Shown here piece after piece: positions 34,208-42,843 of a DNA stretch of 64,000 bases. Source of the stretch: Oceanobacillus luteolus (GTDB lineage: Bacteria > Bacillota > Bacilli > Bacillales > Amphibacillaceae); contig NZ_JAMBON010000001.1 in the NCBI RefSeq assembly GCF_023715655.1, forward strand, positions 62,001 to 126,000. The letters are read 5' to 3'. Every line of letters begins with the position of its first letter. Position 1 is the stretch's first letter. The notes below the pieces were generated by a model. It was not told the origin of the DNA. It saw only the letters and a list, made by a program, of their open reading frames with translations, and did no database searches. The position numbers and the translations under genes are program-made.

Positions 34208-34276
34208 ATAGTAGTTCGAAACCTTTGATTTATTGTATTTAAGAATAAAAAATTTCTACATGAGGACCGAGTCAAA

Positions 34277-34440
34277 TCCCTTTCGCTTTCCGCAGGTGGC
34301 CGTGAGCTTCGACACAAAGGAAGTGCTAATGCAGACGTTGCCACAGGACGTGGTCGATTTTAGTCTGCCTCGCTACGCTGCGGGGTCTCCTCTGGCCTGT
34401 CCTCCTGCACGAGTCTCGAAATATTTGGACTGCTCCTTGT
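34277..34440 (+). repeat. Dispersed noncoding repeat, copy A
   Basis: GC-richer than its surroundings. Carries the ordered blocks CGCTTTCCG (34284-34292), GTGAGC, TGCGGGGTCTC (34379-34389) and GAGTCTC (34411-34417), shared with copy B. Not coding; an overlapping open frame of 70 codons has no ribosome site or recognisable product. Confidence 0.7.
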
Positions 34441-34574
34441 CATAATTTATTGGTCTCACTGGATTCCTTCAATTTCTAAAGCAACGGATGAAACTTAGAT
34501 GCAAATGTATTAATTGTTTTAATAAAATTAATTCCCTTATTCAATGAACCAAATCAACATATTTGCTGGAGCTG

Positions 34575-34697
34575 CACCCGATACACCGGAGACTCCTGTG
34601 GGAGCAGAAGCATCGGTGAGACCCCGCAAGGTGCTTGCTCCTGAGGAGGCTCACCAGCCGACCACGGAAAGCGAAGGTGTATCGGGGGCGGCGAACT
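34575..34697 (-). repeat. Dispersed noncoding repeat, copy B (inverted)
   Basis: On the minus strand it reads CACCTTCGCTTTCCGTGG (ending near 34677), then GTGAGC, TGCGGGGTCTC (34618-34628) and GAGTCTC (34589-34595), the same block order as copy A. A and B face each other across about 130 AT-rich bases. Open frames across it on both strands are by-products of its base composition. Confidence 0.7.
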
Positions 34698-34761
34698 TCG
34701 GGAAAAGAGAATCCATTAATCAACAGTTTAAATATATCGTGCAGGAGATATTTTTCATAAT

Positions 34762-35921: not shown

Positions 35922-36281
35922 TTATGGGGTGAAGAATTCCGCACTAATCAAGTGATTGATTGAGAAAAATTCTTGTTGAGATTGTAGTCTTATTTGAAAG
36001 TTTAAATTTCGATAATGTTCAGTAGCATTTCCCAACGTGATCTCGACTTGACCATAGGGAAAAGTATATCTTGCAGTTCGTAAGATTTCTTCTGATTTTC
36101 TCTGCTCTTCTATATATTTTACACGAGCCATTTGGAATAAGGTTTCTATTTGATTCTGTTCTATCTGTCTATCTGTGATAAAAAGCTCATTACGATAGGC
36201 GATAATACTAGTGCTGATTATGATAAATATAATTGATATGGTAAATAAAACGTGAATGAGAAAAAATCCATTAGGTTTCAT
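35922..36281 (-). CDS. comGG: ComGG, minor pseudopilin of the competence pilus
   Basis: The last gene of the comG operon. The short 119-residue product starts MKPNGFFLIHVLFTISIIF, a basic stub followed by one hydrophobic helix, with an extracellular basic part. ComGG is a poorly conserved minor pseudopilin needed for DNA uptake. The open frame extends to 36314, but the ATG at 36281, which overlaps the comGF end, gives the normal N-terminus. Identification relies on operon position. Confidence 0.78.
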   Translation of the reverse strand: MKPNGFFLIHVLFTISIIFIIISTSIIAYRNELFITDRQIEQNQIETLFQMARVKYIEEQRKSEEILRTARYTFPYGQVEITLGNATEHYRNLNFQIRLQSQQEFFSINHLISAEFFTP

Positions 36282-36729
36282 TGTAAAATGTGAATGTTCG
36301 TTCAAACCTAGCACCTTCTTCGACAGTAATCACTATTTTTATGCCATAAGGTTGACTATAAAATTCTAATCCCTCTATATCACGCAAATAAATTTCATGT
36401 CCTCTGTTTTCAACCTGTCTACGAATTAGATTATCGTATTGGCTGATAATAACGATTGCATCATCTTCTTGGATAAGGTGTAAGGCATCTTTCTTAATAA
36501 AATAAGAATGTGATGAGATGATGTCATCCCGGATAAAACGGAAAAATTCATGAACAGATAGCTCTTCGTAACTATCGGATGGTTTTGTTGTGATTTGGAG
36601 GACATATCCGAGAAAAGGCAGGGTAATAAAAATTAGACTTATCATCGTAAGAAGTGTAACAAGGTTAAATCCTTTTTCATTTGTAAGGTAAGCCATATAG
36701 GCAGAAGGATTCTGTCGTTTTTTTTGCAT
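36271..36729 (-). CDS. comGF: ComGF, competence pseudopilus protein
   Basis: The product has an N-terminal prepilin-like segment (NEKGFNLVTLLTMISLIFITLPFLG) and an extracellular domain of the ComGF family (FFRFIRDDI, DAIVIISQYDNLIRRQV, GIKIVITVEEG). It overlaps comGE upstream by 53 bases and comGG downstream. The start is uncertain: GTG 36744, ATG 36729 or ATG 36696; none has an ideal ribosome site, so translation is probably coupled. Confidence 0.84.
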   Translation of the reverse strand: MQKKRQNPSAYMAYLTNEKGFNLVTLLTMISLIFITLPFLGYVLQITTKPSDSYEELSVHEFFRFIRDDIISSHSYFIKKDALHLIQEDDAIVIISQYDNLIRRQVENRGHEIYLRDIEGLEFYSQPYGIKIVITVEEGARFERTFTFYNET

Positions 36730-37018
36730 TAATCCAGTATACACATCCTTTCACATAACCTTCTTCCTCGTAAAAATGTAAGCTGAAAACCCTATTCTTA
36801 AGTTCTGTTTCAAATGTAGCAGGGAGGAGGGGAGCATCCTCCCATATAAAATGTTGGATTTCTTCATGTAATATAATAGAAGCCCATCTCTTATCTGATA
36901 ATGTGTCTGTTGCCATCTGCAGTTGTGAATGGATGGGTATAAAAATTAAAATGACTTGAAAGAAGATGGTTGATGCAACTAGTACCTCAATCATGGAGTA
37001 TCCGTTTTTCCCTCTCAA
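36677..37018 (-). CDS. comGE: ComGE, minor pseudopilin
   Basis: A 113-residue protein starting at TTG 37018 behind AAAGGGAGG. The N-terminus RGKNGYSMIEVLVASTIFF has the prepilin peptidase site (G before YSMIE, with Glu at +5). ComGE is a minor pseudopilin and overlaps the comGD end by 32 bases. The longer open frame upstream, to 37099, lies within comGD and is not used. Confidence 0.84.
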   Translation of the reverse strand: MRGKNGYSMIEVLVASTIFFQVILIFIPIHSQLQMATDTLSDKRWASIILHEEIQHFIWEDAPLLPATFETELKNRVFSLHFYEEEGYVKGCVYWINAKKTTESFCLYGLPYK

Positions 37019-37424
37019 CGTAAAACCTCCCTTTACCGAGCGGAAATACGAAATGTATCCGATCCGTTGGTGTATACATGGGTATCCTGCGAGGTTCAAG
37101 AAACGTTCCAGTTTCTTTAAATCTTATCGTTTGTCCTGCTATGGTCGACCAGCCAGCTGGATAATCTCGATCTGCGTAGGTAGGATTTCTACCGTGTAAT
37201 ACACGGTAATAATGATCGTGAAATCTGATGGACATTTGATTTACTCCATGATGACTCGTCTGATTTTGGACGAGTAAAACATCCAATTTCAATTGTTCAA
37301 TAAATTGTTCCTCTTTTAGATTATTTAAAGTGTTAAATTGAAGTGGAACAGTAAGAATCATCAAGAGAGCTACTATGCTTAAAACAATGAGCATCTCAAG
37401 AAAGGTAAATCCATTTTTATTCAT
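36987..37424 (-). CDS. comGD: ComGD, minor pseudopilin
   Basis: A 145-residue prepilin-like protein. It starts NKNGFTFLEMLIVLSIVALL, a type IV prepilin signal with cleavage after Gly and Glu at position 5 of the mature form, then an extracellular domain. It follows comGC by one base. ComGD supports assembly of the DNA-uptake pseudopilus. Confidence 0.92.
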   Translation of the reverse strand: MNKNGFTFLEMLIVLSIVALLMILTVPLQFNTLNNLKEEQFIEQLKLDVLLVQNQTSHHGVNQMSIRFHDHYYRVLHGRNPTYADRDYPAGWSTIAGQTIRFKETGTFLEPRRIPMYTPTDRIHFVFPLGKGRFYVEREKRILHD

Positions 37425-37425
37425 T

Positions 37426-37737
37426 TCAATTTTGAGGTGATTTAATTGTAGCTTTTCCGTTAGAAACCGTTATTTGCGAATCCCCACAAGTCTTCTGATT
37501 TTCCTCAAGATAATTGTTTTCAATTAAGGTTTGAATACTGCTGGCAGTCTGACCTTTGTCTAAGTAGTAAGCATCCGCTTGAGCCTGAACAACAGCTACT
37601 AACGCATCACACCCCTTATCGTTTACATTTTTCGACTGAGATGTAAGATTGGGAATGATTAGTATCAACAAGACAGAAATAATCAACATAACGATTAACA
37701 TTTCAATCAACGTAAATCCCTTATTATTTTTAAGCAT
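37426..37737 (-). CDS. comGC: ComGC, major pseudopilin
   Basis: The 103-residue major subunit of the competence pilus. Prepilin signal NNKGFTLIEMLIVMLIISVL, then a mature part with two cysteines (KGCDAL and KTCGDS) in the positions that form the intramolecular disulfide in B. subtilis ComGC. AAAAGGAG precedes the ATG. Processing needs the prepilin peptidase ComC, not in this window. Confidence 0.95.
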   Translation of the reverse strand: MLKNNKGFTLIEMLIVMLIISVLLILIIPNLTSQSKNVNDKGCDALVAVVQAQADAYYLDKGQTASSIQTLIENNYLEENQKTCGDSQITVSNGKATIKSPQN

Positions 37738-37753
37738 TTTACATTCTCCTTTT

Positions 37754-38782
37754 CTAAAAAGTGTTCATTAGTTGAAACATTGGCCACATTAAACTGAGGT
37801 AAATGAAAATAATAAAAATGCCCAATATGATATAAAATATCGGTTGAATAACGGTTATTATCTTAATGGTCATCCGTTCCATCTCTTCTAAAAGCATATC
37901 GCTATATAAAGTTAAATCCCTCTCAAGTACATCAGTTGTAGCGTTTTTTTGAAAGATGATGGCTAACTGTTCTTCAATCAAAGGAAACTCTCTAAGTAAA
38001 TTACTAATATGAAAACCATGCTCCAAATTATTTATCAAGAGTGTAGCGTAATAAGAAATAATCGGAAGTCGCTGTTGGTTGGATAATTCATAGAGAATTT
38101 CTTTTAAGGAAAGACCTGCTTTAAGCAGTGAACTGAAATGCGTGGCAAATTGAAAGGAAGTTTGTATCCGCAAGTAATGGCGGTAGAGTGGAACTCGTTG
38201 AGTCACTTTAACCTGCTCTTCGATTGGCATCTTCTTACTGTAATAATTCCAAAGAATTGTTAATGCAAGAAGTAGAATCGAACAAAATATTAAAGAAAAT
38301 TGAAGAAAGTCCATGATCCATTTTACAACGGTTATTGTCGTTAGTGCTTGCGATGAGGTTAGGAAAAGTGATTGAAAAGCAGGCAATACATGATAGTTAA
38401 TGAAAAATAGAATTAAGGAAAAGAAAAACAGAAGCATTAAAGGATAACGTATGATCAATTTGAGTTTCTTCATTGTATTAAACCGTTGTTCCATGACTTC
38501 GATGCATTTCTTTATTGCCTCTCTTAGATTGGAGTTTGAGTGGATAAAGGATAGAAACGCACTGACAGAAGAATGGAACTTTGTTTCTTCAAAAATAAGT
38601 TCCAATCGTTCACCCTCTTTTAACCTAAAGAGAAAGTGGGAGGAAATATCTGCAAGGTCCTTGTCCCATGCTATTGCTTCTAGTGCATCTTGTAAGGCAT
38701 AACCATTTGAAATAAAGTGCTCCAATCGTTTAAGAAACCTCATTTGAATTTCTTCTGGCAACATATCTCGTTTCTTTGTCAT
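37754..38782 (-). CDS. comGB: ComGB, polytopic membrane platform protein
   Basis: The 342-residue protein belongs to the GspF/PilC family: two copies of the T2SSF domain with FLKRLEHFISNGYALQDALEAI at the N-terminus and FQFATHFSSLLKAGLSLKEILYEL in the middle, and three membrane helices. It anchors the pseudopilus assembly ATPase. I prefer ATG 38782 by alignment with the family N-terminus; GTG/ATG options at 38809, 38764 and 38743 exist. It overlaps comGA. Confidence 0.92.
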   Translation of the reverse strand: MTKKRDMLPEEIQMRFLKRLEHFISNGYALQDALEAIAWDKDLADISSHFLFRLKEGERLELIFEETKFHSSVSAFLSFIHSNSNLREAIKKCIEVMEQRFNTMKKLKLIIRYPLMLLFFFSLILFFINYHVLPAFQSLFLTSSQALTTITVVKWIMDFLQFSLIFCSILLLALTILWNYYSKKMPIEEQVKVTQRVPLYRHYLRIQTSFQFATHFSSLLKAGLSLKEILYELSNQQRLPIISYYATLLINNLEHGFHISNLLREFPLIEEQLAIIFQKNATTDVLERDLTLYSDMLLEEMERMTIKIITVIQPIFYIILGIFIIFIYLSLMWPMFQLMNTF

Positions 38783-39770
38783 AAACTTCAGAGAAGAAAC
38801 CATACGCATATGCTTTCCTCCTTAAGTGGTCAAAAGAATGATACTTATTCGTTACATCTTCTAGTCGAATTGCTCTCGCCAATTCGTCCCCATCTAATAA
38901 CTCCAAAATTGCTGCTCGTTGAAAGGAATCTTTTCTTTTGATGGGGACTAATTCAATACTGGCAACCGCAAGTAACGATTGTAATAAATCTTGCTGATTG
39001 ATTCCCATCTCAAGTAAACGGTAAATCGTTCCTGTAGTATTTTTTGCATGTAGAGTGCTTAATACTAAATGGCCTGTCAATGAAGCCTGAAATGCAAATC
39101 GGGTTGTAGTTGCATCTCTAAGTTCTCCAATCATCAACACGTCCGGATCATGTCGTAAAGCTGCTTTCAAACCTGTCTGATAAGTGATTCCTGCTTGTTC
39201 ATTAATTTGGACTTGTATCACTCCATCAATCAGTTTTTCAACTGGATCCTCCAGCGTTATCATTTGATAGGTGTTATTCTCCATTAAGGCTTTTATTAAT
39301 GCGTAAAGCGTGGTTGTTTTTCCACTTCCTGTAGGTCCGGTAATTAAAATTATCCCTTCTTTTTTTGTCAGCCATTTTTTTAAAGTATTGAGTTGATTTG
39401 GGAAAAGAAAAAGTTTATCCAGTGGCAGGAGATTCTCCTCTGGCAAGATTCTGATTGCCAAGCTTTCGAGTGAAGCGAGGGGGAGTGTTGAAAGTCTAAG
39501 GGAGTAGCTGCCTAGTGATGAAAAATGGTGGAAAATACTACCGTCTTGTGGCTTTCTTGATTCTCCAATATCCATACCAGCTGTAAATTTAAAATAGGTT
39601 AGCAATAGCTCATATTGACTAGTCTGGATGGAGCGGTGGTATACGCGTTTGCCATGAATGCGAAAAAATACGTTCGTTTCCTTACGAGCGGGGAAGAAGT
39701 GAAGATCGGTTGCTTTGGTAGTGATAGCGTTATGGAGCAGCTCTTCAACTAAAGGTAAAGCCGGGTTCAA
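38730..39770 (-). CDS. comGA: ComGA, competence pseudopilus assembly ATPase
   Basis: The 346-residue secretion ATPase powers pseudopilus assembly. It has Walker A GPTGSGKTTTLYAL, the aspartate box TLEDPVE, Walker B DVLMIGELRD and the His box LSTLHAKNT. It starts at TTG 39770 with AAAGGAGGTGA upstream. It heads the operon comGA-GG. No clear ComK box was found upstream, only an A8T4 tract. Confidence 0.95.
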   Translation of the reverse strand: MNPALPLVEELLHNAITTKATDLHFFPARKETNVFFRIHGKRVYHRSIQTSQYELLLTYFKFTAGMDIGESRKPQDGSIFHHFSSLGSYSLRLSTLPLASLESLAIRILPEENLLPLDKLFLFPNQLNTLKKWLTKKEGIILITGPTGSGKTTTLYALIKALMENNTYQMITLEDPVEKLIDGVIQVQINEQAGITYQTGLKAALRHDPDVLMIGELRDATTTRFAFQASLTGHLVLSTLHAKNTTGTIYRLLEMGINQQDLLQSLLAVASIELVPIKRKDSFQRAAILELLDGDELARAIRLEDVTNKYHSFDHLRRKAYAYGFFSEVYDKETRYVARRNSNEVS

Positions 39771-42508: not shown

Positions 42509-42654
42509 ATGATACACCCTTTTTAGCTAATTAAAATTTGGATTTCACTATACCTTTCCTAAAAAATATGGTATTATTCAATGCAAGAATAGAAATTTTC
42601 TTATTATAGATGTAGTTTTACCATTAACTGAAAATATATGCCGTGGATGAAGAT

Positions 42655-42843
42655 AAGGGGAGAGATTACATCATTTGATGTAACGCCGAAGGAGCAAGTT
42701 GAAGACGAATCTCTCAGGCAAAAAGACTCTTATTGGACACAACTCTGGAGAGCGTTTACATATCCTGTAAACCACCCAAGAAGCAAGTATTTACTTAGAA
42801 GATTTTCTATGTAAATATGCAACTTTCTGGTACAAGGACAGAG
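42655..42843 (+). promoter_or_regulatory. Tandem glycine riboswitch of the gcv operon
   Basis: Two aptamers are visible. The first (about 42657-42735) has GCCGAAGGAGCAAG and CTCTCAGGCAAAAAGAC. The second (about 42743-42843) has CACCCAAGAAGCAAG and GCAACTTTCTGGTACAAGGAC. The closing stem of the second pairs CTCTG (42743-42747) with CAGAG (42839-42843), which overlaps the terminator stem at 42840. Glycine binding should thus prevent termination and turn gcv genes on. Confidence 0.95.

Follow-up and report, generated by a model that had tools for sequence, protein, structure and literature searches.

What kind of element is the pair of facing, non-coding repeats that lies between two convergent genes of Oceanobacillus luteolus, and are its two copies separate arrivals or parts of one unit? 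The window that we analysed is a stretch of 64,000 nucleotides from this genome. A sequence-only reading had proposed a dispersed, possibly mobile non-autonomous element or a structured RNA family, with the two copies (A and B) as independent insertions. We arrive at a composite non-coding element of the MITE type, of which A and B are the arms, and give this reading a probability of roughly 0.78.

Copies A and B and the hairpin family

The four blocks said to be common to copies A and B were all located in both and in identical order (Table 1), and the copies are indeed GC-rich (the G+C content is 0.54 in A and 0.61 in B, over the matches to R1, a covariance model built from alignment A1 of 26 copies from the same genome). 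The R1 matches are 113 bp apart. Much of the difference in length between A and B is a separate module nested within A, the Bacillaceae-1 RNA of Rfam.

Table 1. Positions in the window of the facing pair, its conserved blocks and the adjoining features
Feature	Positions	Strand	Basis or remark
Copy A, long hairpin form, type II outer stem, with Bacillaceae-1 insert	34257-34445	+	R1 match, 60.6 bits, E 1.9e-14
Copy B, short hairpin form, type I outer stem	34559-34704	-	R1 match, 139.2 bits
AT-rich spacer separating the two hairpin tails	34446-34558	.	sequence
Inserted segment holding both hairpins	34208-34761	.	missing at the orthologous junction in most relatives; limits approximate
Bacillaceae-1 RNA (Rfam RF01690), inside copy A, opposite strand	34311-34379	-	42.8 bits, gathering score 35
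Internal-loop block CGCTTTCCG, copy A	34284-34292	+	sequence; conserved order-wide
Internal-loop block CGCTTTCCG, copy B	34665-34673	-	sequence; conserved order-wide
GTGAGC block, copy A	34302-34307	+	sequence
GTGAGC block, copy B	34649-34654	-	sequence
TGCGGGGTCTC block, copy A	34379-34389	+	sequence
TGCGGGGTCTC block, copy B	34618-34628	-	sequence
GAGTCTC block, copy A	34411-34417	+	sequence
GAGTCTC block, copy B	34589-34595	-	sequence
Terminator-like hairpin, directly outside the inserted segment	34762-34796	.	similar hairpin right after the gene in G142, G143, G009 and G144

Each copy is predicted to form a rod-like hairpin of about 140 bases, consisting of an outer stem, an asymmetric internal loop (in which CGCTTTCC faces GGAGTCT), a middle stem and an inner stem that closes on GAGCCTC, facing GGGGTCTC. 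Within the genome the outer stem comes in two recurrent types, I (CCCCGATACACC) and II (CCAAATACCTC), and aligned pairs mostly combine one of each. For six short copies the predicted folding energy on the + strand lies between -57.7 and -82.0 kcal/mol; for copy B the minus strand gives the somewhat more stable fold (-68.0 vs -57.7 kcal/mol).

Strong pair covariation bears out the proposal of a structured family, as far as the predicted fold is concerned. In A1, which holds 26 of the 28 listed rows (omitted were the second register of the copy at L021 and the degenerate copy at L032), 18 of 46 pairs changed on both sides and paired cells amounted to 92.9%, values that none of 500 shuffles reached. 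A second alignment, A2, has 124 rows (121 distinct copies from many genera) taken from 85 chosen sources, with several rows per genome. Here 38 of 44 pairs changed on both sides, a count that is biased towards the R1 structure because A2 was fitted to it; the covariation was 0.433, as compared with 0.140 after shuffling and at most 0.095 after sliding. Correction of DNA palindromes could yield the observed stem covariation, as could RNA function.

The family is dispersed, as proposed, and its core is far more frequent than expected by chance: a query of 511 bp gave 57 BLAST matches in the genome of O. luteolus, and R1 gave 40 at E<=0.01 (38 of them below 1e-5; 150 of 272 candidates scored), the weakest of which falls on the opposite strand of a copy already in the list. 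Within the order, R1 matched in 87 of 120 genomes, where copy counts are lower bounds (21 candidates scored per genome); three relatives, G006, G011 and G141, had 65, 87 and 142 matches, respectively. In a phylum-wide sample, with 8 candidates scored per genome, matches were found in 3 of 299 genomes. A stricter pattern found at least 106 stretches in named genomes, and the 80 matches listed include Halobacillus, Oceanobacillus, Ornithinibacillus, Rossellomorea, Evansella and other genera that, going by their names, we take to be Bacillus-like. Four plasmid records matched (query coverage 60-62%), and a search of phages for the family gave no match.

The copies are mainly intergenic. A non-element open reading frame of at least 70 aa overlaps 2 of 30 loci in this genome and 5 of 58 elsewhere; the blocks did not prove to be part of a coding gene in relatives. 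Divergent gaps are the rarest context (2 of 29 loci here, 4 of 56 in other genomes, both neighbours called), where some pairs contribute both arms from one place to the count for O. luteolus. The gene-context survey showed no fixed gene partner.

Facing pairs as units and their mobility

Copies that lie within 700 bp of each other nearly always face each other: this holds for all 16 cases in the genome of O. luteolus, 8 of 8 in loci of three relatives, 29 of 31 in named genomes and, among loci of 29 further genomes, 4 of 6 (the remaining two form one tandem array). Moreover, in two related genomes, G141 and G148, one pair of terminal inverted repeats (TIRs) and one target duplication enclose both hairpin copies. 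These observations do not support the view of A and B as independent insertions; we read the window pair as a single unit whose arms have diverged. Single copies also occur, and at one locus (L115, 1529-1999) three copies stand in tandem in the same orientation at a spacing of about 193 bp. Convergent genes as the cause of the facing arrangement were ruled out, as pairs are found in tandem gene contexts as well, and so was a pair of intrinsic terminators, as the hairpins lack a U tract and a separate terminator lies outside.

The units in G141 and G148 carry terminal repeats of the form GGCTnTGTTAAAG...TGTTGAT and are flanked by 8-bp target duplications. The end pattern GGCTWTGTTAAA matched 31 times in G141 and 46 times in G148, against one control match in each; in O. 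luteolus it stayed at background (2 matches vs 3 for the control). Thirty-six units bounded by such ends span 76-1166 bp, with a longest internal open stretch of 155 codons in the subset examined, and hold a facing pair (20 units), one core (9) or no detectable core (7). The 8-bp duplication was identical in 14 units and had one mismatch in 10 (no more than one mismatch in 24 of the 36, compared with 0 of 144 for shifted flanks), and the remaining 12 had more than one. Three units (L225, L260 and L261) have perfect duplications and no detectable core. As in MITEs, the units of G141 and G148 are short, multi-copy and free of an internal transposase gene, and terminal inverted repeats with target duplications are present in the relatives. 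Among named genomes of other genera, ends of this kind together with an 8-bp duplication were found for only 6 of 84 units, though for none of the 84 after shuffling. An empty site was found as well: the pair unit L147 of G141 has no counterpart at the corresponding position in G148, a close species, where the flanks are 96 and 98% identical; a clean duplication is absent there because the right end of the unit is truncated.

The same ends bound a 2204-bp transposon on a plasmid of Pontibacillus sp., with a ATTCGAAA duplication on both sides and a transposase of the IS1595 family (NF033547, E 7e-62; PF12762, E 2e-13). Two pieces with a glutamine synthetase annotation flank this transposon (L398, 2501-4704), which has other genes inside. 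G141 contains two intact transposase genes that are 91% identical to each other, one of which (L407) lies in a complete element with the same ends (GGCTCTGTTAAAG...TGTTGATATT), a AATTCTTT duplication on both sides and an open frame of 352 aa; it is only in G141 that unit ends match those of an IS1595-family transposon of the same genome. None of the autonomous IS1595-family transposons examined contains the hairpin core, and since it is also absent from the three perfectly duplicated units, the hairpins appear to be cargo for IS1595-type transposition. Taken together, the terminal repeats with their 8-bp duplications, the empty site in the sister species and the IS1595-family transposon with the same ends indicate that the family behaves as a MITE-type composite, which agrees, for the relatives, with the earlier suggestion of a mobile and non-autonomous element.

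Two further arrangements were seen around such ends. On an Aneurinibacillus plasmid (L394, 1924-2710) IS1595-type ends and a ATTTTTTA duplication surround a GNAT gene without a transposase, a non-autonomous unit with a protein passenger, and in G058 (L403, 3100-3700) a facing hairpin pair adjoins an IS1595-type end near a transposase gene. ISL3, which also gives 8-bp duplications in AT-rich targets, was rejected as the mobiliser: PF01610 was found in 4 of 9 genomes, and none of the fetched transposases was bounded by GGCTnTGTTA ends. The transposase query had no match in G148, despite its many TIR-bounded units, and none in O. luteolus. Since the end pattern is at background in the latter genome as well, we do not file the window copy as IS1595-derived.

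Other ends occur in the genome and genus of the window. A whole pair unit occurs twice in the genome of O. luteolus, about 14.8 kb apart (L020 and L022), homologous inside GAGGTTGGGACAA-like ends and unrelated outside, and other units in the genus end in GTTGATATAAAGTGCGAAC-like repeats and lack a clear duplication. With the IS1595-type ends, one core is thus present within at least three kinds of ends.

The units may also have a preferred position. A terminator points at the unit within 70 bp in 11 of the 24 units with a clean duplication, compared with 1% in shuffles, which were the control for this preference in place of random intergenic positions; in the 400-bp flanks, 6 of the 7 terminators found in 28 flanks lie within 50 bp of the unit.

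The window junction and the nested Bacillaceae-1 module

In the window, 604 bp separate the coding ends of a metallo-hydrolase gene and a convergent gene of 80 aa, as compared with 57 bp in the nearest relative, G142. The distance is 50-135 bp, with no match to the family, in 12 of the 15 relatives that have both genes, and in G142, G143, G009 and G144 the junction is little beyond a terminator. The inserted segment of the window adjoins a terminator too. Degenerate hairpin copies are present at the junction of G017 (537 bp), Bacillaceae-1-like sequence, as judged by eye, at those of G016 (283 bp) and G004 (362 bp), and in G021, whose contig ends before the second gene, a facing pair lies downstream of the first. 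Because these four genomes hold related sequence, the junction was either hit more than once or received an old, shared insertion that was repeatedly lost; either course may apply in place of a single recent insertion. Neither TIRs nor a target duplication were seen around the window pair, by eye or by matching one degenerate repeat, as for an old, eroded copy; this repeat, GTTGATATAAAGTGCGAACTA, scored mostly at shuffled level against the ends of 15 pairs of the same genome. Elsewhere in the window there are a glycine riboswitch aptamer (42647-42739, + strand, 68.6 bits) and a set of genes (35922-39770, - strand) that presumably form a competence (comG-like) operon.

The insert in copy A matches RF01690 over its full length and above the gathering threshold; copy B has no such match. 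The genome of O. luteolus has 12 Bacillaceae-1 matches, 11 of them above the cut-off, and 8 of the 12 sit in hairpin loops, all 8 antisense to the hairpin + strand. One of the others lies in a 23S-5S spacer, directly adjoining the 5S rRNA (L037, 1501-1568), and three lie in another dispersed repeat with a common CAGGGACTG...ATAAGTC...GTGTTTCCTTTATC (L038, L039 and L040, about 1350-1750). Of the duplicated units L020 and L022, one carries the insert in its first hairpin and the other in its second, which gives a filled and an empty version per site; because the neighbouring loop moves with the insert in one case, insertion is no more likely here than gene conversion from arm to arm. Bacillaceae-1, catalogued as an sRNA, may be a module that comes and goes in mobile repeats, a point that matters for the interpretation of such RNA families.

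Alternative readings and known systems

In the composite that we favour, a unit would consist of hairpin I, an AT-rich spacer and the inverted hairpin II. A transposase acting in trans would work on the unit ends and move the unit, often to just behind a terminator, while the hairpins would be cargo, dispensable for transposition, and Bacillaceae-1 in copy A a further optional module that is gained or lost within a hairpin. The window pair would be an old, eroded member that landed between two convergent genes. For the family as such, mobility has good support, and for the window copy we infer it.

Much of the same evidence has to be weighed for other readings. The strongest competitor, which we place a little below even odds, is that the facing arms are long subterminal inverted repeats of a MITE and functionless, their covariation being due to palindrome correction by template switching. 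The symmetry of the unit (TIR-hairpin-spacer-hairpin-TIR) fits this, as do the near-perfectly Watson-Crick outer stems, which change from one Watson-Crick pair to another with almost no G.U intermediates. However, every hairpin is by itself a complete palindrome with conserved unpaired blocks, the core is found with different ends and as single copies, and U.G pairs, which correction should erase, persist: at three + strand positions of A2 they are near-constant (113, 96 and 93 of about 107-121 cells). These U.G positions, the order-wide conservation of the internal loops, the both-side changes in 38 of 44 pairs and the presence of the Bacillaceae-1 RNA in the loop of 8 copies would instead suit a putative functional RNA family (an sRNA or an element of 3' ends), in which selection maintains the copies and mobility is incidental. 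We consider this rather unlikely: the switches between Watson-Crick pairs are what palindrome correction would give, the nested Bacillaceae-1 is antisense in all 8 cases, and no fixed gene partner was seen. Outside the constitutive positions, furthermore, A.C exceeds G.U on the + strand (164 vs 88), so that either strand may be the working one.

Inverted hairpin pairs that are intergenic and multi-copy are also reminiscent of REP/REPIN-like elements moved by a tyrosine transposase (RAYT), but the IS1595-type TIRs and 8-bp target duplications around the units disfavour this for G141 and G148, and we regard it as very improbable. Building on the composite reading, we put forward, as a speculation that may well be wrong, that sequence-specific selection acts on the hairpin as a non-coding module that can be exchanged, spreads in Bacillales by travelling in inward-facing pairs on transposon ends of unrelated kinds (IS1595-type in G141 and G148, GAGGTTGGGACAA-type in L020 and L022, and GTTGATATAAAG-type in the genus of the window), itself hosts Bacillaceae-1 and outlives its vehicles. 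Under this speculation the hairpin might plausibly shield the 3' ends of genes, as clean units often stand directly behind terminators. The link to IS1595-type ends offers a testable mechanism of mobility, and conserved internal loops on different ends make a function of the cargo itself directly testable.

The family is very common but little described, with matches in 87 of 120 sampled Bacillales genomes and over 140 copies in one of them. It had no Rfam match of its own up to E=1 over the window stretch searched, and a literature search by sequence letters, repeat type, MITE terms and IS family, with few subscription journals covered, found no published description of it, nor did it confirm a 190-bp repeat in B. 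subtilis. BOX elements of Streptococcus pneumoniae and bcr1 of Bacillus cereus are dispersed non-coding repeats that are modular or form hairpins; we liken them to the hairpin family by description, not by sequence. The accessible parts of PMC2267715 and PMC3733652 name bcr1, and those of the latter treat GTAG/CGTC REPs. Bhal-1, a stem-loop repeat of Bacillus halodurans (74 bp, 36 copies, intergenic type, conserved structure), is given as previously undescribed in the available part of its report (Cozzuto 2008, PMC2267715), and may be the core of the hairpin family, again by description of that part and not by sequence. Bacillaceae-1, which appears in the list of Weinberg 2010 (PMC2864571) as far as that source was accessible, differs from the hairpin family in being an optional loop module only, in antisense orientation. 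IS1595-family insertion sequences and their non-autonomous derivatives resemble the units of G141, G148 and some other genera in their ends of about 25 bp and their 8-bp duplications, whereas the window copy lacks such ends and the autonomous elements lack the hairpin core. The kind of element is ordinary (MITE-type) and its form unusual: a conserved and very widespread pair of hairpins that differing ends carry as cargo, and in which a catalogued RNA is nested.
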